64,000 bases of DNA, from assembly GCA_021732745.1 (NCBI GenBank), contig JAKFUK010000001.1:1438931-1502930 (forward strand), in the 5' to 3' direction. Position numbers and translations under genes: made by a program. This DNA is from Nevskia sp. (GTDB taxonomy: Bacteria; Pseudomonadota; Gammaproteobacteria; Nevskiales; Nevskiaceae). The notes beneath the pieces were generated by a model that saw only the letters and a program-made list of their open reading frames with translations, had not been told where the DNA came from and made no database searches. Below are positions 2,767 through 35,150 of this stretch, one piece after another (positions within the stretch are counted from its first letter, which is position 1; every line of letters starts with the position of its first letter).

Positions 2767-3855
2767 ATGACCCAGAAAGTTCTGATTGCAGGCGCGAGCG
2801 GCGTGGTCGGTGCGAGCGCGGTGGACGCCTATCTCGCAGCAGGCTGGGACGTGGTGGCGCTGTCGCGACGCGCCCCGGAAGTCGATTCCGACCGGCCGTT
2901 CCTGCATCTGGCCTGCGACCTGCGCGACGCGGCGTCGGCCACGGCGGTGCTGTCGTCGCTGTCAGGCGTCACCCACGTCGTCTACGCCGCGTTGTACGAG
3001 AAGCCGGGCCTGATCGCCGGCTGGCAGGACGCCGAACAGATGCAGACCAATCTGGCGATGCTCGACAACTGCCTGAAGCCGCTGCTGGCCGGTGCCAACG
3101 CCATCGCCCACATCAGCCTGCTGCAAGGCACCAAGGCCTATGGCATCCACCTGCACCCGATGCCGATCCCGGCCCGCGAGCGCGCCCCGCGCGACGACCA
3201 CGCGAACTTCTACTGGCTGCAGGAAGACTGGCTCAAGGCAGCCGCCGGCCGCCACGGCTTCGGCTGGACCATCCTTCGCCCGCAACTGATCCTCGGCCGC
3301 GCCCATGGTGCAGCGATGAACCTGATCCCGGTGCTCGGCGCCCATGCCGCGATCTGCCGCGAAACCGGCAAGCCGTTCGGCTTTCCCGGCGGCATCAGCT
3401 ACGTGTGGGAAGCGGTGGACGCCCGCCTGCTGGCCAACGTCTTCGTCTGGGCTTCAGGCGCCGAAGTGGCTCGCGGCCAGCACTACAACGTCACCAACGG
3501 CGACGTCTTCGAGTGGCGCAACCTGTGGCCGGCGATCAGCGCAGCGCTCGGCGTCGAGCCCGACCCGGACGCGCCGATGTCGATGGCGGAATTCCTGCCC
3601 GCCAACGCCGCCGTCTGGGACCGCGTGGTGGCCCGAAACGGGCTGCGCAAACTGTCGATCGAAGCCCTGCTCGGCGAATCCCACCACTACGCCGACTTCT
3701 GCTATGCCCATGGCGCAACCACGCCACCGCCAGCCGCCTTCGTCAGCGCCATCAAGCTGCGCCGCGCCGGCTTCACCGAGGTTTGCGATACCGAGGACAC
3801 CTTTCGCTACTGGATTGCGGATTTTCAGCGGCGGGGGATTTTGCCGAGGGTGTGA
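2767..3855 (+). CDS. PRISE-like NAD(P)-dependent short-chain reductase
   Basis: A 362-residue extended SDR. The Rossmann glycine motif is at the N-terminus (VLIAGASGVVG). The residues that mark the PRISE group (progesterone 5-beta-reductase/iridoid synthase-like enone reductases) can be recognised: a lysine in LQGTKAYGIH and the catalytic-type tyrosine in NFYWLQEDWL. PRISE enzymes reduce activated C=C bonds with NADPH. A GGAGG sits just before the ATG at 2767; the frame is open further upstream but overlaps hipA. Annotators often label such proteins NAD-dependent epimerase/dehydratase. The natural substrate cannot be inferred. Confidence 0.8.
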   Translation: MTQKVLIAGASGVVGASAVDAYLAAGWDVVALSRRAPEVDSDRPFLHLACDLRDAASATAVLSSLSGVTHVVYAALYEKPGLIAGWQDAEQMQTNLAMLDNCLKPLLAGANAIAHISLLQGTKAYGIHLHPMPIPARERAPRDDHANFYWLQEDWLKAAAGRHGFGWTILRPQLILGRAHGAAMNLIPVLGAHAAICRETGKPFGFPGGISYVWEAVDARLLANVFVWASGAEVARGQHYNVTNGDVFEWRNLWPAISAALGVEPDPDAPMSMAEFLPANAAVWDRVVARNGLRKLSIEALLGESHHYADFCYAHGATTPPPAAFVSAIKLRRAGFTEVCDTEDTFRYWIADFQRRGILPRV

Positions 3856-10964: not shown

Positions 10965-13900
10965 ATGACAACCTTCACTCGCTGGCCCCGGCTGATGCTC
11001 GGGCTGCTCCTCGCAGGCGGCCTTGCCGCTTGCGACAAGAACGACAATCCCGATGACGATGACGGCAGCCCGCCGCCGGCCGTGCCCACCGTCACCCTCG
11101 CCGCCGCCCCGACCACCCTGGTTCAGGGCGCGGCCACCACGCTGACCTGGTCGTCGACCAATGCCACCGCCTGCGCCGCTTCCGGTGCCTGGACCGGCGC
11201 ACGCGGCGTTTCCGGCAGCGAAGCGAACACCCCGGCTGCGGCCGGCAGCGCCAGCTACACGCTGACCTGCACCGGTGCCGGCGGCTCCGGCACCGCCACG
11301 GCAACCGTCACCGTCACCGCACCGCCGCCGCCCGCAGCACCCACCGTCACCCTGTCGGCCGCACCGACGTCGATTGCGCTCGGCTCGCCGACCACGCTGA
11401 GCTGGTCATCGACCAATGCCACCGCCTGCACCGCCTCCGGTGCCTGGTCCGGTGCTCGCGCCGTGTCCGGCAGTCAGGCGAATACGCCAGCCGCCGCCGG
11501 CACTGCCAGCTACACCTTGACTTGCACCGGCGCGGGTGGCTCGGCCAATGCCAGCGCCACGGTGACGGTCAACCCGCTGCCCACGGTCACCATCAGCGCC
11601 GATCCGGCCACTCTGACCCTGGGTGCGGCGAGTACGCTGACCTGGTCGTCGACCAATGCCACGGCCTGCACCGCTTCCGGTGCCTGGACCGGTGACCGCG
11701 CCAGCAGCGGCACCGCCAGCGTCACCCCGGTGGCAACCGGCAGCATTCCCTACACCTTGAGCTGCACCGGCCCCGGCGGCTCGGCCGCAGCAACGGCCAG
11801 CATCACGGTGAATCCGGTGCCGACGCTCACCCTGAGCGCCGCGCCAGCGACCGTGATCATCGGCAACAGCAGCACGCTCACCTGGTCGTCGTCGAACACC
11901 ACGGCTTGCACGGCATCCGGCGGCTGGAGCGGTACGCGCGCGGTCAGCGGTACCGAAGCGGTCACACCGGCTGCGGTGGGCAGCGCCAGCTACACGCTGA
12001 CCTGCACCGGCCCGGGCGGTTCGGTCGCCGCCACCTCGGTGGTGACGGTCAACCCGATCCCCACGGTGAGTCTCACCTTTGAAGGCCGCGCCGTCAGCGC
12101 GGGTGGCGCGACCGGCGACGGTGCCCTTGCCAACGCCGCGATTCGCGTCACGGCGGGCGGCCAGAACTTCACCGGCACGGCCGACGCCGCCGGCAATTTC
12201 TCGATTCCGGTGACGATTCTGGAATCCGAGCAGGACCGGCTGGTGCGCATCTTCGCCACCGAAGCGTCGGCCACGCCGATCGTGGTCTATGTCAGCCAGC
12301 TCGCCAGCTTCCGCACGCTGCTGACCCAGGCCGGACCGGACTTCACGCTGTCCGACAACGAGAATTTCCGCGTCAACGTCAGCAATGTCGCCACGGCCGA
12401 AACCGCACTGGTGCAGGAAGCGGCATTCGGCTTCCCGGCCAATGACGCCACCGTCCGTCCGCCCCTGCTGGCGGCTGCCGCACGGCCACGCAGCTTTCCG
12501 GTGACCAGCATCGCCGCCAACGACGGGGAACTGGAAGCGGCGCTGATGTCGATCAACCAGACCGAACTGCTCGACATTGCGGTGTCGCTGAGCCTGGTCG
12601 CCGATCGCGGCTTCGCCCTGCCTGCCGACATCGACAGCACGCTCGGTCTGGCGCTGACGCCGGCTGCGCGGCAGCAGCTCATCAACGATGCGCGCACGGC
12701 CGACGCAGCGGTGGTCGACGAAACGCTGGGCAGCTTGCTCGCCAATCCATCGGCGGTCATGGGAACGTCCGTCGCCGACGTGCCGCGCATCGCGATCTCC
12801 GCGATCACCGGCGCATCCACCGAGGAAAACCTGATCGGCAATGGCGGCGGCAGCGGCGGCGCGGCCAGCTTCCGATTCGATGCCGATGGTCGCGGCACCT
12901 ACGCCGACAGCTCGTATTCGTCGGAAAGCTCGACTTGGTCGGTCAACGGCAACGGCGTCATCGAAATCCGGTTCCCGGTGCCACCGTCGGTCAACATCGA
13001 GCGGTTCATCGACGATCCAGACTCCGAAGAAGGTTTCCGGATCATCATCTGCACGCTTTCCCTGACCGCTGTTGACGTCCGCCCGATCTCCACGACCACG
13101 GCGCGTCGCACGGATACGCAAGCGTTCGCCTGCCCGGAGGCCCCGGAACTGGATGAACAGTTCCAGAATTCCGTGACCTCGCTGTTCGTGGCTCCGGGCT
13201 CGCTGCCGCCGATCACCGCGGCCGACGTATCCGGCCAGACGCTGGGCCTGCGGATCGCCGATCCGTTCGACATCGGCTTTGGCAGCGGCCCCTTCGGCTT
13301 CCCAGGCGATCTGCTGAGCTTCAACGCCGACGGCACCGGCACCACGCGGGCGCAGGCGCTGACGTTCACCTGGTCGATTGACGACGATGGTGCGCTGGTC
13401 GTCAATGTTTCCAACGGCATCCAGAGCCGCTTCCGGAAGCTGCGCGAAGTGGTCGACGGCATCGACCTGTACTTCTCCGAATATTCCGGTGCGGACGCAA
13501 GGCGCACGTTGCAGCAACCCGCCTTCCGGGCGAACGGCGCGCTGACCTTCACGCCTGCCAATGTCGTGGGGACGCATTACAACGCCGGTGTCGGTGCAGT
13601 GTTTCCGCTGGAGTCCGTCGACTTCGCGCGCCCGGCAACAGAGGCCGAGACGGCGCTGCTGAAGGGCTTCGTGATTGAAGTGTTCGACAACGGCTTCTTC
13701 GATCAAACGGCCGATCGCCTGGTGACGAACGCGGAAGGTCAGGTCATCAGAAGCTTTGGCCCAACGCGCAGCACGGACATCGGAAACTACTGGCGGATCA
13801 TGCCGGACGGCAGTCTGGTATTCCGGCGTTATGTCAGCGTTCCTCCCAGACGCGGTGAAGGAACAGGCTGCGGCTTTGATGGAGCGGAGCCTGGATGCGC

Positions 13901-28245: not shown

Positions 28246-29018
28246 AAGCGCTTTGCCGCTCGAATCAACACGGAATCGGCCGGTTCCGGCGTGCGGTGCT
28301 GTGCGTAGACCTCGCGCACCCAGGCCAGCGTCGGGTGTTGCAGCCAGGCGGCTGCGGAATCGGCGGCGACAGCGCGGAAATCAGGGGAACCGTAGAGCGG
28401 GTGCTGGTCCGGGCTGGCCAGCGGGGCCAGCAGGGCGCATAGGGTCAGGTCCTCGATTCCGAATGCGTTGCCTAGATACGGCCGATTCCCGCGGCGCTCG
28501 GCGATGCTGTCGAGTGCCGCCTCGATCTTTGCCCGCGCGCGGGCAATGCCGGCATCGTTCATTGCGAAGCGGCGGCGGAAGGCCGGCAGCATCAGCGGCA
28601 TGATCGCTTTCAGCACGGCGATCTCGGCCGCATTCGAGGCCAGCGTCCAGACCCGGATGATCTCGCGCGGATCGCTCAGCATCGGCGCGTAAGCCGCCAT
28701 CAGCACCGCGCGGCCCAGGCCGTCATGGCTGGCGGCGGCGGCCAGCGCTTCGTCGCGCGCTTCGTCTTCGTCGGGCAGCAGGCGGTCGATCAGGCCGCGC
28801 GTCGCCAGCCTGTGCAGGATGCGGTCGCTGCCCTGCACGCGCAGTCCGTCGCCAGTGACGATCGGCACGGTGCTGCCGTGGCGGCCGATGAACGGCGTGA
28901 CCGCCATGTGCAGCCCCGGCGTCAGCGCCCGTTCGACGAACGGCACGCCGGTGGCGAGCAGGGTCCAGCGAATCTTTTCGCTGAAGTGGGAAATGACGAA
29001 GCTGTGCAGGGTGAGCAT
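28242..29018 (-). CDS. Glutathione S-transferase family protein
   Basis: 258 residues. The N-terminal 80 form a thioredoxin-like GST domain (LHSFVISHFSEKIRWTLLATGVPF, then STVPIVTGDGLRVQGSDRIL with the glutathione gamma-Glu contact motif). The rest is the helical C-terminal domain with the N-capping-like GIEDLTLCALLAPLA. The start at 29018 fits the fold; upstream codons have no homology. Its TAG stop is exactly the foot of the neighbouring REP (AAG CGC TTG TAG). It is divergent from the RidA gene. Substrate unknown. Confidence 0.85.
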   Translation of the reverse strand: MLTLHSFVISHFSEKIRWTLLATGVPFVERALTPGLHMAVTPFIGRHGSTVPIVTGDGLRVQGSDRILHRLATRGLIDRLLPDEDEARDEALAAAASHDGLGRAVLMAAYAPMLSDPREIIRVWTLASNAAEIAVLKAIMPLMLPAFRRRFAMNDAGIARARAKIEAALDSIAERRGNRPYLGNAFGIEDLTLCALLAPLASPDQHPLYGSPDFRAVAADSAAAWLQHPTLAWVREVYAQHRTPEPADSVLIRAAKRL

Positions 29019-29182
29019 CGTTTTCGGATCGGCAAACAGGGCGGGAGCACCATGATGCCGTGCCGAAGATGACCGGAATGGCACAGCTCGCGAACCCGGC
29101 ACGAATTTCGCGCCAGTTTCGAGCCGCCATCGCGATTAAGCTCGCCGCTTGCCACCACGAACCGTTACCGGAGAGACCGAAC

Positions 29183-29704
29183 ATGAAGACAAAGACCGCA
29201 GGCGCGGCACTGCTGCTGACGATCGGCACCACCTTGCTCGGAGGCTGCGCGCTGCAGGCCCCGGTGGGCGAGGTCACCCGCATTTCCCTCGGTGATCCGA
29301 AGTTTCCGATCGCCGCCGCCGTCACCGTGCCGGCCGGCCACACCACCAGCTATCTGAGCGGCAATCTGCCCGATGTCGCCAATCCGGCCGCCGCGAAAGG
29401 CAGCGTCGAGGCCTATGGCAACACCGAAACGCAGACCGCGTCGGTCTTGAAGAAGCTCGGCGATACCTTGGCCAAGCTCGGTCTGGGCTATGGCGATGTG
29501 GTGTCGGCCACCGTGTTCCTGGTCGGCGATCCGGCGAAGAACGGCGATATCGACTTTGCCGGCATGAATGCGGCGTTCTCGAAGGTGTTCGGCTCTGAAA
29601 CCCAGCCCAACAAGCCGTCGCGGTCGACGGTGAAAGTGGCCGGTCTGGTCATTCCCGGTGCGCTGGTGGAGATCGACCTGATTGCCGTGCATCCGGCGAA
29701 GTAA
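29183..29704 (+). CDS. Lipoprotein-anchored RidA-family imine deaminase
   Basis: 173 residues. The first 22 form a lipoprotein signal ending in LLGGC, with alanine at +2, which predicts outer-membrane anchoring. The mature part is a RidA/YjgF/UK114 trimeric fold: SYLSGNLPDV, YGNTETQTASVLKKLGDTLAKLGLGYGDVVSATVFL, and the active-site arginine in KPSRSTVKVAGL followed by GALVEIDLIAV. RidA proteins normally act in the cytoplasm, hydrolysing reactive enamines/imines. An exported one next to a Tat-exported amine oxidase suggests it processes the imine made by that enzyme. GGAGAG precedes the ATG. Confidence 0.87.
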   Translation: MKTKTAGAALLLTIGTTLLGGCALQAPVGEVTRISLGDPKFPIAAAVTVPAGHTTSYLSGNLPDVANPAAAKGSVEAYGNTETQTASVLKKLGDTLAKLGLGYGDVVSATVFLVGDPAKNGDIDFAGMNAAFSKVFGSETQPNKPSRSTVKVAGLVIPGALVEIDLIAVHPAK

Positions 29705-30130
29705 GACTGCGGAACGGATGTCGCGATGCGATCCTTTGCGAAAATCCGCTCCGCGCTGAAAGAGTGCAGTTCACAGGCTCGAATCGGCAGCATTCAACCG
29801 CTTGACCCGCGCTTCTGCACTGCTTTTTGTTGATTTTCCTGCGTTGATGATTGCCCGCCACCGTCCGGATTTCCGGACGGGGACGGCTGCGCCGTGCCGG
29901 CCATTTCCGACACCTTTCCAGGGTCTTCGATCGAACCCTGAAGAATTGCTTCAAGCAATTGAATTAAATCAATATTGCTCTCAACGAACAACACCGATCC
30001 GGCGCTTTTCAAGCGCGTTTGACGCGGCATTTGCACCCCTCAGGAAGCTGGCACGTTCCTTGAAGAATCGTCATGGGACGTTTGCAATTTCTTGACATTG
30101 ATGAACTTCACATTAAGGGGTGCTGCCGCC
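29705..30130 (+). promoter_or_regulatory. Leader region of the TonB receptor operon with palindromes and a sigma-54-like site
   Basis: 426 bp without a supported gene. It holds three inverted repeats: CCGTCCGGA-TT-TCCGGACGG at 29861-29880, an AGGGT...AACCCT repeat near 29920-29940 and AATTGC-TTCAA-GCAATT near 29944-29960. At 30049-30064 the sequence TGGCACGTTCCTTGAA departs from the sigma-54 consensus at one key base (GA for GC at -12). An exact TTGACA at 30092-30097 has no good -10 partner. The long leader with several palindromes suggests regulated expression; none of the sites is certain. Confidence 0.35.
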
Positions 30131-32749
30131 GTGACCAAATTGAATCGGATACAGGATGGACTGGAGTCTCTCGCGCTTCGGCAACCGTTGTTCAGGGGCT
30201 ATTGCGCGCCGCTGGTGCTGTCGGCGGCGGTGGCCGTCTTGCTGCCGTCGCGGAGCCATGCCCAGGACGCAGCAGCCGAGGCGCCAGCCGCTGCTGTCGA
30301 AGTGGCGGCGGCCGGCACGCCGACCAGCGCCGTGGGCGCACAGCTTGAAGAAGTGGTGGTCACCGGCACCCGCGGCAAGGGCTTGCAGGCGTCCGAAACC
30401 CTGGCACCGGTGCAGGTGCTCAGTGCCGACACCCTGAAAAGCGCCGGCCAGCCCGACCTGATCGGCTCAATCGCCCAGATCGTGCCCTCGTTCACCGCCC
30501 AGGCGTTTGGCGGCGACCAGGCCAACCAGACCTTGTCGGCGAAGTTGCGCGGCGTGTCACCGAACCACGCGCTGGTGCTGATCAACGGCAAGCGGCGGCA
30601 CACCACGGCCAATCTCGCGGTGCTCGGCGGGCCGTTTCAGGGCGCGGCCTCGGCCGATCTCAACTTCATTCCGGTGTCCGCGATCAAGCGCGTTGAAGTG
30701 CTCACCGATGGTGCGGCCGCCCAGTACGGCACCGATGCCATTGCCGGCGTCATCAACATCATCCTCAAGGACAAGGACGAAGGCGGCACGGTCGACGGCA
30801 CCTACGGCGGCTACCTGAACGGCGGCGGCGACACCATCAACCTGTCGAGCAACATCGGTTTCAGTCTGGGGCCGGATGGCTTCATCAATCTCACCGGCGA
30901 AATTCGCAGGCGCGAACGCAGCGATCGTGGCGGCATTGATCCCCGGGTCACCAACCCGGGCAATCTGGCGACCTTCCCGAACTCCAATCTGCCGCTGGCC
31001 CCCGGGTATCCGTTCCTGAATCGCATCCAGGGCGATCCGGAAATCGACATCTACACCGGCTCCTACAACGCCGGCTACCAATTCGGCACCGTCAAGTTCT
31101 ACAGCTTCGGCACCTACGGCATCAAGAAGGCCAATTCGCACGAAAACTACCGCCTGCCGAGCCGCGCGTCCTACACGCCGCCGCCGATCACCGATTCCGG
31201 CGGCGACACCGTGCAGCCGCCGACCGAATATTTCTACCCCTTCGGTTTCAGTCCGCGCGAAGCGACCGATGAAGAGGATTTCGCCGCCACTTTCGGCGTC
31301 AAGGGCACGGTGTTCGGGGCTTGGGACTGGGATCTGAGCAGCACCTACGGCAAGGACGAAGTGAAGTTCTTCACGCTCGACTCCATCAATGCCGATCTCT
31401 ACGCGCTGAACGGCACCTCGCCGACCGATTTCTTCGGCGGCGTCTATCTGTCGAGCCAGCTGACCAACAATCTCGACGTGGTGCGCGAATTCGAGGTCGG
31501 GCTCAGCAGCCCGCTGAACGTGGCGGTCGGCATCGAGCAGCGCTACGAGAACTACCAGCTCAAGACCGGCGATCTGGCCTCGCGCTTCGGTTCCGGCGCG
31601 CAGTCGTTCCCGGGTGTGCAGGTCGGCGACGCCGGCTCGCACGGCCGCCACAACTACGCGCTGTATGTCGATCTGGCGACCTCGCCGATCAAGAACCTGC
31701 AGGTCGATATTGCCGGGCGACTCGAATACTTCACCGACTTCGGCAGCACCCTGGTCGGCAAGCTCAGTTCGCGCTACGACTTTTCGCCGACGGTGGCCGT
31801 CCGCGGCACGGTCAGCACCGGCTTCCGGGCACCGACCCTGGCGGAGTCCTATTACTCGGCCACCAACGTCGGCCCGCAGAGTGCCTTCGTGCAGTTGCCG
31901 CCGAACGCCGCAGCGGCCAGCCTGCTGGGTCTGGGCAGCGGCTTGCAGCCCGAGGAATCGACCAATCTGAGCGTGGGCTTGGTGCTGCATCCGACCCGCC
32001 AGCTCAGTGCCACGATCGACGCCTACCAGATCGAGATTCGCGACCGCATCGTCGGCTCCGGCACCCTGTTCAGCCAGTTCAACGGCGTGCCGGTGCCCGG
32101 TGCCGAAGCGATCACCGCCGCGATCATCGCCAACGGCAATGTGCTGGACCCCACCGTCACCGACACCGGCATCAACATCTTCGCCAACGGCCTGACCACG
32201 CGCACCCGCGGTGTCGACCTGGTGCTGAGCTACCCGGACAACTACGTCTGGGGCGCGGTGGACTGGTCGGTGAGTGCCAACTACAACAAGACCAAGGTCA
32301 CCAAGATCAATGCCAGCCCGGCGCAGCTTGGCGGTCAGTCCTTGTTCGATGCCGTGGCGCTGTCCGATCTGGAAACCGCATCACCGGAGTACCGCTTCAA
32401 CTTCAGCGGCGTCTGGAGCCTGAACCGCTTCACCGTCACCCTGCGCGAAACCATCTACGGGCCGGCGGCGGAGAAGGAAATCGGCAACGACGGCAGCATC
32501 TTCACCAACCGCATCAAGGTCACGCCGATCACCGATCTGGAACTGGGCTTCAAGGCGACCAGGAAGGTCAAGTTCAGCCTGGGCGCGAACAATCTGTTCA
32601 ACGTCTACCCGGATCAGAAGAACGCCGCACTGTTGCAGGGCTATCGTGACGGCAACAACAACTCGGCGGTGGCGATCTATCCGTCGTCGTTCTCGCCGTT
32701 CGGCTACAACGGTGGCTACTACTACGCCAAGCTCGGCTATACCTTCTGA
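30131..32749 (+). CDS. TonB-dependent outer-membrane receptor
   Basis: About 872 residues from the GTG at 30131, which has an AAGGGG at suitable distance; an in-frame ATG at 30101 lacks one. A signal peptide ends near SHAQDAA. A TonB box-like EEVVVTG precedes the plug domain (about residues 85-205: LRGVSPNHALVLINGKRR, ASADLNFIPVSAIKRVEVLTDGAAAQYGTDAIAGVINIILK). The barrel follows, with the usual FRAPTLAESY segment and a terminal aromatic residue (LGYTF). There is no N-terminal signalling domain. It probably imports a substrate for the amine oxidation genes that follow 95 bp downstream on the same strand. Confidence 0.92.
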   Translation: MTKLNRIQDGLESLALRQPLFRGYCAPLVLSAAVAVLLPSRSHAQDAAAEAPAAAVEVAAAGTPTSAVGAQLEEVVVTGTRGKGLQASETLAPVQVLSADTLKSAGQPDLIGSIAQIVPSFTAQAFGGDQANQTLSAKLRGVSPNHALVLINGKRRHTTANLAVLGGPFQGAASADLNFIPVSAIKRVEVLTDGAAAQYGTDAIAGVINIILKDKDEGGTVDGTYGGYLNGGGDTINLSSNIGFSLGPDGFINLTGEIRRRERSDRGGIDPRVTNPGNLATFPNSNLPLAPGYPFLNRIQGDPEIDIYTGSYNAGYQFGTVKFYSFGTYGIKKANSHENYRLPSRASYTPPPITDSGGDTVQPPTEYFYPFGFSPREATDEEDFAATFGVKGTVFGAWDWDLSSTYGKDEVKFFTLDSINADLYALNGTSPTDFFGGVYLSSQLTNNLDVVREFEVGLSSPLNVAVGIEQRYENYQLKTGDLASRFGSGAQSFPGVQVGDAGSHGRHNYALYVDLATSPIKNLQVDIAGRLEYFTDFGSTLVGKLSSRYDFSPTVAVRGTVSTGFRAPTLAESYYSATNVGPQSAFVQLPPNAAAASLLGLGSGLQPEESTNLSVGLVLHPTRQLSATIDAYQIEIRDRIVGSGTLFSQFNGVPVPGAEAITAAIIANGNVLDPTVTDTGINIFANGLTTRTRGVDLVLSYPDNYVWGAVDWSVSANYNKTKVTKINASPAQLGGQSLFDAVALSDLETASPEYRFNFSGVWSLNRFTVTLRETIYGPAAEKEIGNDGSIFTNRIKVTPITDLELGFKATRKVKFSLGANNLFNVYPDQKNAALLQGYRDGNNNSAVAIYPSSFSPFGYNGGYYYAKLGYTF

Positions 32750-32844
32750 GCCGCTGGCGGTGAATCACGGCGGCAATCTTTCGCGGATTGCCGCCTTTCC
32801 CGGTTTCCCTTGAGCCTGGCAGCCAACATCGGCAGGAGTCGTTC

Positions 32845-34443
32845 ATGAGCACACCCGCAACACCCGCGTCGATGACCCGGCGCGAGCTGCTGACCCTGAT
32901 CGGCAGCGTCGCCGGCAGCAGCGCGTCCTACACGGCGATGGCCGGCATGGGCCTGACCACGCCGTCCAACTACACCGGGCCGATCAAGCTCGAAGGCGAT
33001 CCGAAGGGGGCGTCGGTGCTGATCCTCGGTGCCGGCCTGGCCGGCATGGTCGCCGCGTATGAACTGCGCAAGGTCGGCTACAAGGTGCGGGTGCTGGAGT
33101 ACAACACCCGCGCCGGTGGCCGCAACTGGACCTTGCGCGGCGGCGACAGCTACACCGAACTCGGCGGCATCACCCAGACCTGCGGCTTCGACAAGGGCCT
33201 GTACATCAATCCCGGCCCCTGGCGCATTCCCCATCACCATCACGGCGTGCTCGACTACTGCCGGCGCTTCGGGGTCGCGCTCGAACCCTATGTGCAGGTC
33301 AACTACAACGCCCTCGTGCATTCGACCAAGGCCTTCGGCGGCAAGCCGCAGCGCTTCCGCGAAATCCAGTCCGACTATCAGGGTCAGATCGCCGAACTGC
33401 TGGCCAAGGCCACGCAGCAGCACAAGCTCGACGAACTGGTGACCAAGGAAGACCAGGAAATGCTGCTGGAATCGCTCAAGGACTGGGGAGCCCTGGACGA
33501 GCACCACGCCTACGCGCCGGGCCGCGAAAGCAGCGAGCGTCGCGGTTACGAAAAGCTGCCGGGCGGGGGCGTATCGGCCGTACCGGTGTTCTCCAAGAAC
33601 ATCATTCCGTTTTCGCCGCTGCTGCATTCGCAACTGTGGGGTGCCATCGGGGCCGGCCAGAATTTCGAGATGCAGACCATGCTGTTCCAGCCGGTCGGCG
33701 GCATGGACAAGATCGGCGATGCCTTCAAGCGCCAGGTCAACGACCTGATCCAGTACAACGCCAAGGTCACCCGCATCCAGCAGGCCCCGGGCAAGGTCAC
33801 GGTGAGCTATGTCGATGCCGTGAAAGGCGGTGCGCCGCGCACCGCCACTGCCGACTGGTGCCTGTGCACCATTCCGCTGTCGGTGCTGAGCCAGATCGAG
33901 ATCGACGTCGGCGATGACATGCAGGCGGCGATCAACGCCGTGCCGTACGCGGCTTCGACCAAGGTCGGCCTGCAGTTCAAGCGCCGCTTCTGGGAGGAGG
34001 ACGAGCACATCTACGGCGGCATCACCTACACCGACCTGCCGATCCGGGTGATCGCCTATCCGAACAACGGCTATCACTCGGCCGGCAAGGGCGTGCTGCT
34101 GGGCGGCTACATGTTCGGCCCCAATGCCTACGAGTTCACGTCATTGCCACCAGCGGAAAGAGTGCGCCGGGCCGTGGAATACGGTGCGCAGATTCACCCG
34201 CAGTACAAGACCGAGTTCGACAACGGCATCGCCGTGGCCTGGCATCGCGTGCCCTGGACGCTCGGCTGCCTCGGCGTCTGGACCGACGAACGCCGCGCCG
34301 AGCACTACCAGAACCTCTGCCAGATCGACGGCCGCTTCCTGGTGGCCGGCGAGCATGCGTCCTACATCCCGGGCTGGCAGGAGGGCGCGGTGCTGTCCTC
34401 GCTGGACGCCATCACCCGCCTGCACCAGCGCGTCGTCGCCTGA
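32845..34443 (+). CDS. Tat-exported flavin amine oxidase
   Basis: 532 residues. The N-terminus has a twin-arginine signal (TRRELLTLIGSVAGSSASY). The FAD-binding dinucleotide motif is VLILGAGLAGMVAAYELRKVGYKVRVLE, followed by NTRAGGRNWT. The C-terminus has the second FAD motif (GRFLVAGEHASYIPGWQEGAVLSSL). This is the flavin monoamine oxidase / L-amino acid oxidase family, which oxidises amines to imines. The cytochrome c gene starts 8 bp after the stop, so electrons may go to cytochrome c rather than to oxygen, making it a dehydrogenase in practice. The substrate could be an amino acid or polyamine; that cannot be decided here. Confidence 0.9.
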   Translation: MSTPATPASMTRRELLTLIGSVAGSSASYTAMAGMGLTTPSNYTGPIKLEGDPKGASVLILGAGLAGMVAAYELRKVGYKVRVLEYNTRAGGRNWTLRGGDSYTELGGITQTCGFDKGLYINPGPWRIPHHHHGVLDYCRRFGVALEPYVQVNYNALVHSTKAFGGKPQRFREIQSDYQGQIAELLAKATQQHKLDELVTKEDQEMLLESLKDWGALDEHHAYAPGRESSERRGYEKLPGGGVSAVPVFSKNIIPFSPLLHSQLWGAIGAGQNFEMQTMLFQPVGGMDKIGDAFKRQVNDLIQYNAKVTRIQQAPGKVTVSYVDAVKGGAPRTATADWCLCTIPLSVLSQIEIDVGDDMQAAINAVPYAASTKVGLQFKRRFWEEDEHIYGGITYTDLPIRVIAYPNNGYHSAGKGVLLGGYMFGPNAYEFTSLPPAERVRRAVEYGAQIHPQYKTEFDNGIAVAWHRVPWTLGCLGVWTDERRAEHYQNLCQIDGRFLVAGEHASYIPGWQEGAVLSSLDAITRLHQRVVA

Positions 34444-34451
34444 GCACGATC

Positions 34452-34877
34452 ATGAAAAAGCCCAAGAATCCTGCGGGTCTGCGGTTCCTTTGCGTGCTCA
34501 CAGCAGCGCTGGTGACCACCACGGCGCAGGCGCAGAGCGATCTGAGTTCCGGCGCCGTGTTCAGCACCGGGCCAAGCTTCGCGCAGCGCGACGGCCGCGC
34601 GCTGTACGAAGCCATCTGTCAGGGCTGCCACATGCCCGACGCCAAAGGTGCGGTCGGTGCCGGCCGTTATCCTGCGCTGGCCGGCAATGCCAATCTGGCG
34701 GCGGCGCGCTATCCGGCGACGGTCGTGGTCAATGGCCTGCGAGCGATGCCGGCTTTCGGCGATCAGCTCGATGACCAGCAGATTGCCGAAGTCGTCAACT
34801 ACGTGCGCAGCCATTTCGGCAACGATTTCAAAGACCTGCTCGACGCAGGCACGGTGAAGTCACTGCGGCCGAAGTAG
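34452..34877 (+). CDS. Periplasmic mono-haem cytochrome c
   Basis: 141 residues with a signal peptide ([16 protein letters not shown]) and one haem-binding CQGCH in a class I cytochrome c fold ([31 protein letters not shown]; axial methionine probably in [29 protein letters not shown]). It starts 8 bp after the flavin oxidase gene and is almost certainly its partner, passing electrons to the respiratory chain. It ends tail-to-tail with the YkgJ-like gene, overlapping by 18 bp. Confidence 0.93.
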
Positions 34878-35150
34878 CGGCGCCGTTGCCCGTTCGAGCC
34901 GATCAAGAAAAGCCAGCGCCTCGGCACGGGCGCTTCCGCACATCGCAGGATCAGGCTTGAGGCCGCTGCACACCGTCGGCCTGCGCGGATCGCCGAAGAT
35001 CGCGCAGCTTTGGTCATCGCGCAGTTGCACGCAGCGCACGCCGGCCGGTTTGCCGTCCGGCATGCCGGGAATGGCGGAAGAAATCGACGGTGCGATGCAG
35101 CAGGCACCGCAGCCGGGGCGGCATGACGCAACGCCGGCTGCGGGCTTCAT
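34860..35150 (-). CDS. YkgJ-family cysteine cluster protein
   Basis: 96 residues with the YkgJ/Fli-type cysteine pattern: CRPGCGACC, later [24 protein letters not shown]. These small proteins are thought to bind zinc or an iron-sulfur centre; no reaction is established. The start at 35150 lies 8 bp after the stop of the GFA-family gene, and together with the LysR gene they make one compact operon. The frame upstream of 35150 belongs to the GFA gene in another phase. Confidence 0.82.

Follow-up and report, generated by a model that had tools for sequence, protein, structure and literature searches.

The 64,000-nucleotide stretch of Nevskia sp. contig JAKFUK010000001.1 analysed here (hereafter the window) carries, at 29183-34877 on the + strand, four genes encoding a Rid-family predicted lipoprotein, a TonB-dependent receptor, a flavoenzyme exported by the twin-arginine translocation (Tat) pathway and a mono-haem cytochrome c (Table 1). 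The original prediction of four consecutive same-strand genes, with export signals and a TonB receptor, was confirmed by the reading frames, the signals and the Pfam domains. The flavoenzyme gene begins 95 bp after the receptor gene and is followed after 8 bp by that of the cytochrome. Alignment with the metagenome-assembled genome (MAG) of Nevskia L015 points to GTG 30131 as the likeliest start codon of the receptor gene, in which case 426 bp separate that gene from the Rid gene. This MAG is the nearest named relative of the window; its flavoenzyme is 91% identical, and the gene order and the upstream ABC-F gene are the same.

Table 1. Coordinates and diagnostic features of the locus.
Feature	Coordinates	Strand	Details
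Rid3-type imine deaminase, predicted lipoprotein	29183..29704	+	lipobox LGGC, Ala after Cys; PF01042 (Ribonuc_L-PSP, Pfam) 8.6e-16; R147, E163 conserved
Intergenic gap, 426 bp	29705..30130	+	block conserved in Nevskia MAG L015, sigma-54-like element
TonB-dependent outer-membrane receptor	30131..32749	+	probable start codon GTG 30131; longest reading frame begins at 30092
Tat-exported flavin-dependent L-amino acid oxidase-like dehydrogenase (predicted)	32845..34443	+	TRRELLT signal; R127, K373, Y422 kept
Mono-haem cytochrome c, proposed electron acceptor	34452..34877	+	signal peptide, one CQGCH

The flavoenzyme carries its twin-arginine motif in the N-terminal sequence MSTPATPASMTRRELLTLIGSVAG and matches the Pfam domain Amino_oxidase (7.4e-54). 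Among proteins of solved structure, the L-amino acid oxidase (LAAO) of Rhodococcus opacus is its best match (2jae, E 1.8e-87). A set of 142 flavoenzyme relatives was assembled from 80 named loci (the 80 best of 561 relatives), 31 genes of a phylum-wide sample (the window's included), three further loci of a class-wide sample and 28 of one genus. In the three LAAOs compared in PMC9331233, a conserved arginine and tyrosine lie at the substrate carboxylate, and a lysine is also conserved. Matched by alignment, these roles would fall to R127, Y422 and K373, that of the lysine being to hold a water. R127 and K373 were kept in 142/142 relatives and Y422 in 139, phenylalanine replacing it in the other three. 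An LAAO as best solved relative and the retention of the carboxylate-binding arginine and tyrosine make an L-alpha-amino acid the most probable substrate. The generic amine originally proposed as substrate is disfavoured by the kept LAAO residues.

The N-terminus of the Rid protein, MKTKTAGAALLLTIGTTLLGGC followed by ALQ, places the lipobox behind a hydrophobic stretch. With a signal peptide and this motif, which we take to be the mark of a bacterial lipoprotein, the protein is predicted to be lipid-anchored. Its closest solved relatives are PFL1385 (9bkc, 6.2e-39) and PSPTO3006 (9bka, 3.5e-34), the next best match standing at 9.5e-7. Both are classed as Rid3 and, in vitro, deaminate imines derived from several L-amino acids and from D-arginine (PMC5619798). 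Nearest to known Rid3 members and with the catalytic arginine present, the window protein is assigned to the Rid3 subfamily on its sequence.

The export of this protein was compared across 102 linked Rids, that is, Rid reading frames in the neighbourhoods of the 142 flavoenzyme genes, with signals scored by a simple hydropathy rule. The active-site arginine, which had been described as intact, is R147; it is kept in 102/102 linked Rids, and E163 in 101/102. An export signal was found on 89 of the 102, of Sec type in 74 and with a lipobox match in 15, although in two of the latter (L027 and L038) a Sec site fits too. The 13 without a signal come from 12 loci of a single clade, by inference Pseudomonas, and from L052, a MAG whose flavoenzyme-adjacent Rid frame (12059-12556) seems broken. 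As judged from these N-termini, export is the rule for linked Rids of the window type, usually by a Sec-type peptide, and the lipobox is a minority variant. An exported Rid had been considered the unusual part of the locus; the export withstands this comparison, the unusualness does not. Homologues without a lipobox had been named as grounds for refutation; most linked Rids do lack one, yet these are exported.

As a control, eight cluster-bearing genomes were found to hold 61 PF01042 matches, of which 30 were examined as loci. One gave no hit, five were Rid3 proteins (5/5 with a signal) and 24 were other PF01042 proteins, none of which carried a signal on inspection. One of these 24 (L217) was flagged by the hydropathy rule, which we attribute to a too-early start of the open frame. 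The chain of PFL1385 deposited in the PDB (9bkc), matched by L179 at 3107-3655, starts with an apparent Sec signal peptide, so that this enzyme, tested in vitro, is probably periplasmic in its host; no signal peptide was seen on the PSPTO3006 chain. The words 'signal' and 'periplasm' are absent from the main text of PMC5619798. That study also reports complementation by four of six genes, whose identities its available text does not state, and it was not used as evidence of export. Among the literature matches listed (titles and the starts of abstracts, in open PMC without supplements), none stated that a bacterial Rid3 is exported.

The linkage of Rid and flavoenzyme implied by the original prediction was borne out in two samples. 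Among 369 genomes of the class, where the window protein served as the Rid query, six held the flavoenzyme, six the Rid and five both (p 6.5e-10). Among 398 genomes of the phylum, where the Rid profile had been built from flavoenzyme-linked Rids, the counts were 27, 25 and 24 (p 3.7e-34). Both p values overstate independence, the sampled genomes being related; the search scored only some candidates per genome, and the origin of the phylum Rid profile calls for caution as well. In 24/24 phylum-sample genomes holding both, a Rid lay within 3.5 kb of a flavoenzyme. The exceptions were a distant flavoenzyme without a Rid nearby (G240) and an orphan exported Rid (G143) in the class sample, and flavoenzymes alone (G431, G490 and G671) and a Rid fragment alone (G659) in the phylum sample. 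Within 4.5 kb of the flavoenzyme, a Rid was present at 46/80 named and 24/30 phylum-sample loci, some contigs being short. A chance neighbourhood was rejected on the co-occurrence in both samples. These comparisons support the view that flavoenzyme, cytochrome c and exported Rid stay linked across genomes, with the TonB receptor as an optional part.

Two loci show other arrangements. In G506 (L160, 4904-14059), about 9 kb hold two convergent flavoenzyme-cytochrome pairs, two Rid3 genes and one TonB receptor. G143 encodes an exported Rid3 (L101, 8142-8699) but no flavoenzyme of the window family at E up to 1e-30; the neighbours of this Rid resemble, by eye, dnaG and a peptidase.

We consider it likely that the cluster serves the extracytoplasmic scavenging of nitrogen, and of energy, through amino acid oxidation, with electrons passing to the cytochrome and the imine being cleared by the exported Rid. 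The TonB receptor would bring an amino-acid-bearing compound into the periplasm, where the flavoenzyme, with an L-alpha-amino acid bound through R127 and Y422, would abstract a hydride from this substrate, a chemistry carried over from the LAAO family. Reduced flavin adenine dinucleotide would then be reoxidised by the adjacent cytochrome c and not by oxygen, by extension from Tat enzyme and cytochrome pairs tested elsewhere. The Rid3 protein, which by the lipoprotein sorting rule that we assume would probably sit on the periplasmic face of the outer membrane, would hydrolyse the imino acid to a 2-oxo acid and ammonium, both of which may then be taken up.

The window receptor matches the Plug (2.6e-18) and TonB barrel (1.8e-31) domains, and its 3.99 Mb genome holds 24 Plug matches. 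Receptors like it occur within 4.5 kb at 16/80 named loci, with 17 genes near and none at 4.5-9 kb, and near 14/30 phylum-sample loci, with 14 near against two far. Three of the four receptor queries came from such loci, which favours near matches; with the window receptor as lone query, the matches in the 80 named loci were likewise all near. From these counts, the receptor is a genuine, if optional, linked part of the cluster.

The gap upstream of the receptor contains a block (30040-30100) that is conserved between the window and the Nevskia MAG, the rest of the gap having diverged. At 30049-30064 lies a sigma-54-like element, TGGCACGTTCCTTGAA, with one mismatch to the consensus used. The window holds two such matches against 0.99 expected, a count reached in 22/100 shuffles. 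Upstream of the flavoenzyme genes, a score of at least 10/12 was found in 14/98 regions (de-duplicated from 108) against a simulated mean of 3.5; the largest of 100 simulations gave nine and the antisense strand three. A possible link of these candidate sites to nitrogen control is a lead only. No consensus sigma-70 promoter was found against 1.0 expected, and terminator-like sites numbered five against 5.5 expected, so that these counts are uninformative. The fold z score of 29700-30100 was -2.66; an RNA element in the gap is argued against by the absence of any Rfam match at E up to 0.5 across 28900-35000.

The gap and its sigma-54-like block could mean that the receptor and the Rid are separate transcription units and that only the flavoenzyme and cytochrome form the working unit. 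On a FastTree phylogeny of 141 flavoenzymes, Rid adjacency changes 24 times, which speaks for such independence, and cytochrome adjacency three times; the acceptor type therefore follows clades, while a neighbouring Rid is gained and lost. Against this stand the near placement of the Rid in every sampled genome with both genes, the near-to-far ratios of the receptors and the recurrence of the order Rid, receptor, flavoenzyme, cytochrome in Azospirillum sp. RU38E (L046). We find a two-gene unit rather unlikely.

The window cytochrome matches Cytochrome_CBB3 (Pfam, 1.1e-15). A Tat flavoenzyme with an operonic cytochrome is reported to be a good predictor of a cytochrome-using dehydrogenase, whereas most of the tested Tat flavoenzymes without one reacted fast with O2 (PMC12224317, available text). 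By its predicted signals, the window has the combination that marks cytochrome-c-using flavin amine oxidase (FAO) dehydrogenases, namely a Tat signal and an operonic cytochrome c with a signal peptide. Cytochromes related to that of the window stand no more than 1 kb from the flavoenzyme at 78/80 named loci, a sample biased towards the closest relatives, and at 19/30 phylum-sample loci, which hold 31 flavoenzyme genes. The flavoenzyme might instead be a periplasmic oxidase that reduces O2 to H2O2, serving both scavenging and antimicrobial purposes, with the cytochrome as a side partner or peroxide handler. The Rhodococcus relative is indeed named an oxidase, relatives without a neighbouring cytochrome are common (11/30), and the fast reactions with O2 cited above came from Tat flavoenzymes without a cytochrome. 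The cytochrome gene 8 bp downstream, its recurrence in the named relatives and the predictive value of the Tat and cytochrome combination argue in the other direction, and an oxidase of this sort appears improbable here.

At three of those 11 loci, a protein of 202-217 aa with two CxxCH motifs lies between flavoenzyme and Rid. It looks exported and stands in the cytochrome's place at L126 3072-3680 (G689), L127 869-1480 (G560) and L128 822-1475 (G697), suggesting a swap of electron acceptor.

The compartments of Rid and flavoenzyme were compared within one genus (g274), assumed to be Pseudomonas from the similarity of its Rids to PFL1385 and PSPTO3006. Of 149 genomes searched, 35 held the flavoenzyme, and 31 pairs (30 loci, and L125 of this genus from the phylum sample) were called by reading the N-termini by eye. 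A Tat flavoenzyme accompanied a signal-bearing Rid in 19 pairs, and a charged Tat-like stretch a signal-less Rid in 12; no mixed pair was seen. All 31 loci were without a window-type cytochrome. Scoring the hydropathy of the Tat region failed to distinguish flavoenzymes whose Rid is exported from those whose Rid lacks a signal (means 0.82 and 0.85). A Tat rule requiring an uncharged run of at least 15 was discarded, having missed several real-looking Tat signals and passed two of cytoplasmic type. A charge count of the Tat region, chosen after the data had been seen, mislabels five flavoenzymes with exported Rids, and a tree test using it gave one concordant and four uninformative pairs and was non-significant.

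Matched compartments in 31/31 pairs would also suit a Rid that acts as a structural subunit of an amino acid oxidase complex and not as a free imine hydrolase. A periplasmic LAAO-RidA complex of Chlamydomonas is cited in the available text of PMC5053998, and PMC10805672 depicts LAO1 in the periplasm together with LAO2/RIDA. Conservation of R147 and E163 is what would be expected of an enzyme, however, and PFL1385 and PSPTO3006 act on imines from unrelated oxidases (PMC5619798). Both roles may hold together; a purely structural one seems unlikely. We lean slightly towards a broader reading, in which Rid3 is largely a dedicated exported branch of the Rid family, providing periplasmic imine repair that travels with the flavoenzyme and having lost its signal in the one clade, presumed Pseudomonas, where the flavoenzyme went back to the cytoplasm; control of imines in the envelope, in some cases by a membrane-anchored Rid and with supply through a TonB receptor, would then be general in extracytoplasmic amino acid catabolism.

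Several observations weigh against extracytoplasmic amino acid scavenging through flavoenzyme, cytochrome and exported Rid. In the window itself, the gap sets the Rid apart from the other three genes. No Rid was found within 4.5 kb at 34/80 named and 6/30 phylum-sample loci (some contigs being short), and the Rid-less loci include those of Hydrocarboniphaga (L016 and L017), the next-nearest relatives of the window. The switch of compartment by Rid and flavoenzyme is a single event on the tree and therefore one natural experiment, not statistical proof. Related enzymes may use oxygen, since 11/30 phylum-sample loci lack a window-type cytochrome within 1 kb. PMC12224317 sampled relatives of NicA2, its available text making no mention of LAAOs, and the dehydrogenase assignment is therefore transferred to the window family by analogy. 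Finally, the imine also hydrolyses spontaneously (PMC4433059).

Rid proteins are familiar mainly as protectors of cytoplasmic pyridoxal phosphate enzymes (PMC5619798, PMC4433059). Were an exported class of Rids tied to extracytoplasmic amino acid oxidation, imines would have to be removed from the envelope as well, and the natural place of at least one Rid3 characterised in vitro, PFL1385, would probably be extracytoplasmic. With flavoenzyme, cytochrome and Rid in one compartment, the system would be simple and testable.

Beyond the cluster, seven flanking frames gave Pfam matches: an ABC-F-like ATPase, a GST-like protein, a CxxCxxCC protein, GFA, LysR, DoxX and pirin.

The pathway idea is not new, its core being present in the available texts of PMC5053998, PMC4433059 and PMC12224317. 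Genes for RidA, and sometimes Rid3, are described as clustering with amine oxidases (PMC4433059). NicA2, Pnao and their relatives (PMC12224317) likewise pair a Tat flavoenzyme with an adjacent exported cytochrome c; these enzymes are related to NicA2 by BLAST, whereas the window enzyme is nearest to LAAOs, and RidA is absent from the main text of that study. Among the solved Rids, PFL1385 has a Sec-type peptide and the PSPTO3006 chain none, in contrast to the lipobox of the window protein. The LAO1 and LAO2/RIDA genes of Chlamydomonas (PMC10805672) resemble the window in pairing an extracytoplasmic LAAO with a RidA partner encoded in one cluster; LAO1 is, however, a eukaryotic, H2O2-forming oxidase for which the available text mentions no cytochrome partner.

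The closest published counterpart is the lao-cccA-ridA cluster of Gluconacetobacter diazotrophicus (GDI2456-2454; PMC5053998, available text). A Tn5 insertion in lao left no detectable indole-3-acetic acid from tryptophan and lowered the lao, cccA and ridA transcripts; its authors place the LAAO in the periplasm and propose that cytochrome c and RidA assist it. Five of the six published primers match the window proteins no more than eight residues off place. Those of lao fall at residues 404 and 447 against 405 and 448 (4/7 identical each), the cccA reverse primer encodes NYVRSH (6/6, 108 against 116), its forward primer being without fit, and those of ridA fall at 48 and 113 against 53 and 119 (3/6 and 4/6). 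The location of that RidA is not stated in the available text; its primer position would accommodate a signal peptide, as it does in the window Rid. Both clusters combine a Tat LAAO-type flavoenzyme, an adjacent cytochrome c and a linked RidA-family gene. By its genes, the window cluster is thus a variant or relative of lao-cccA-ridA, with two apparent variations: the Rid is a predicted lipoprotein, and it lies upstream, set apart from the flavoenzyme by a TonB receptor. What has drawn less notice in such systems is the export of the Rid and the linkage of an outer-membrane receptor.

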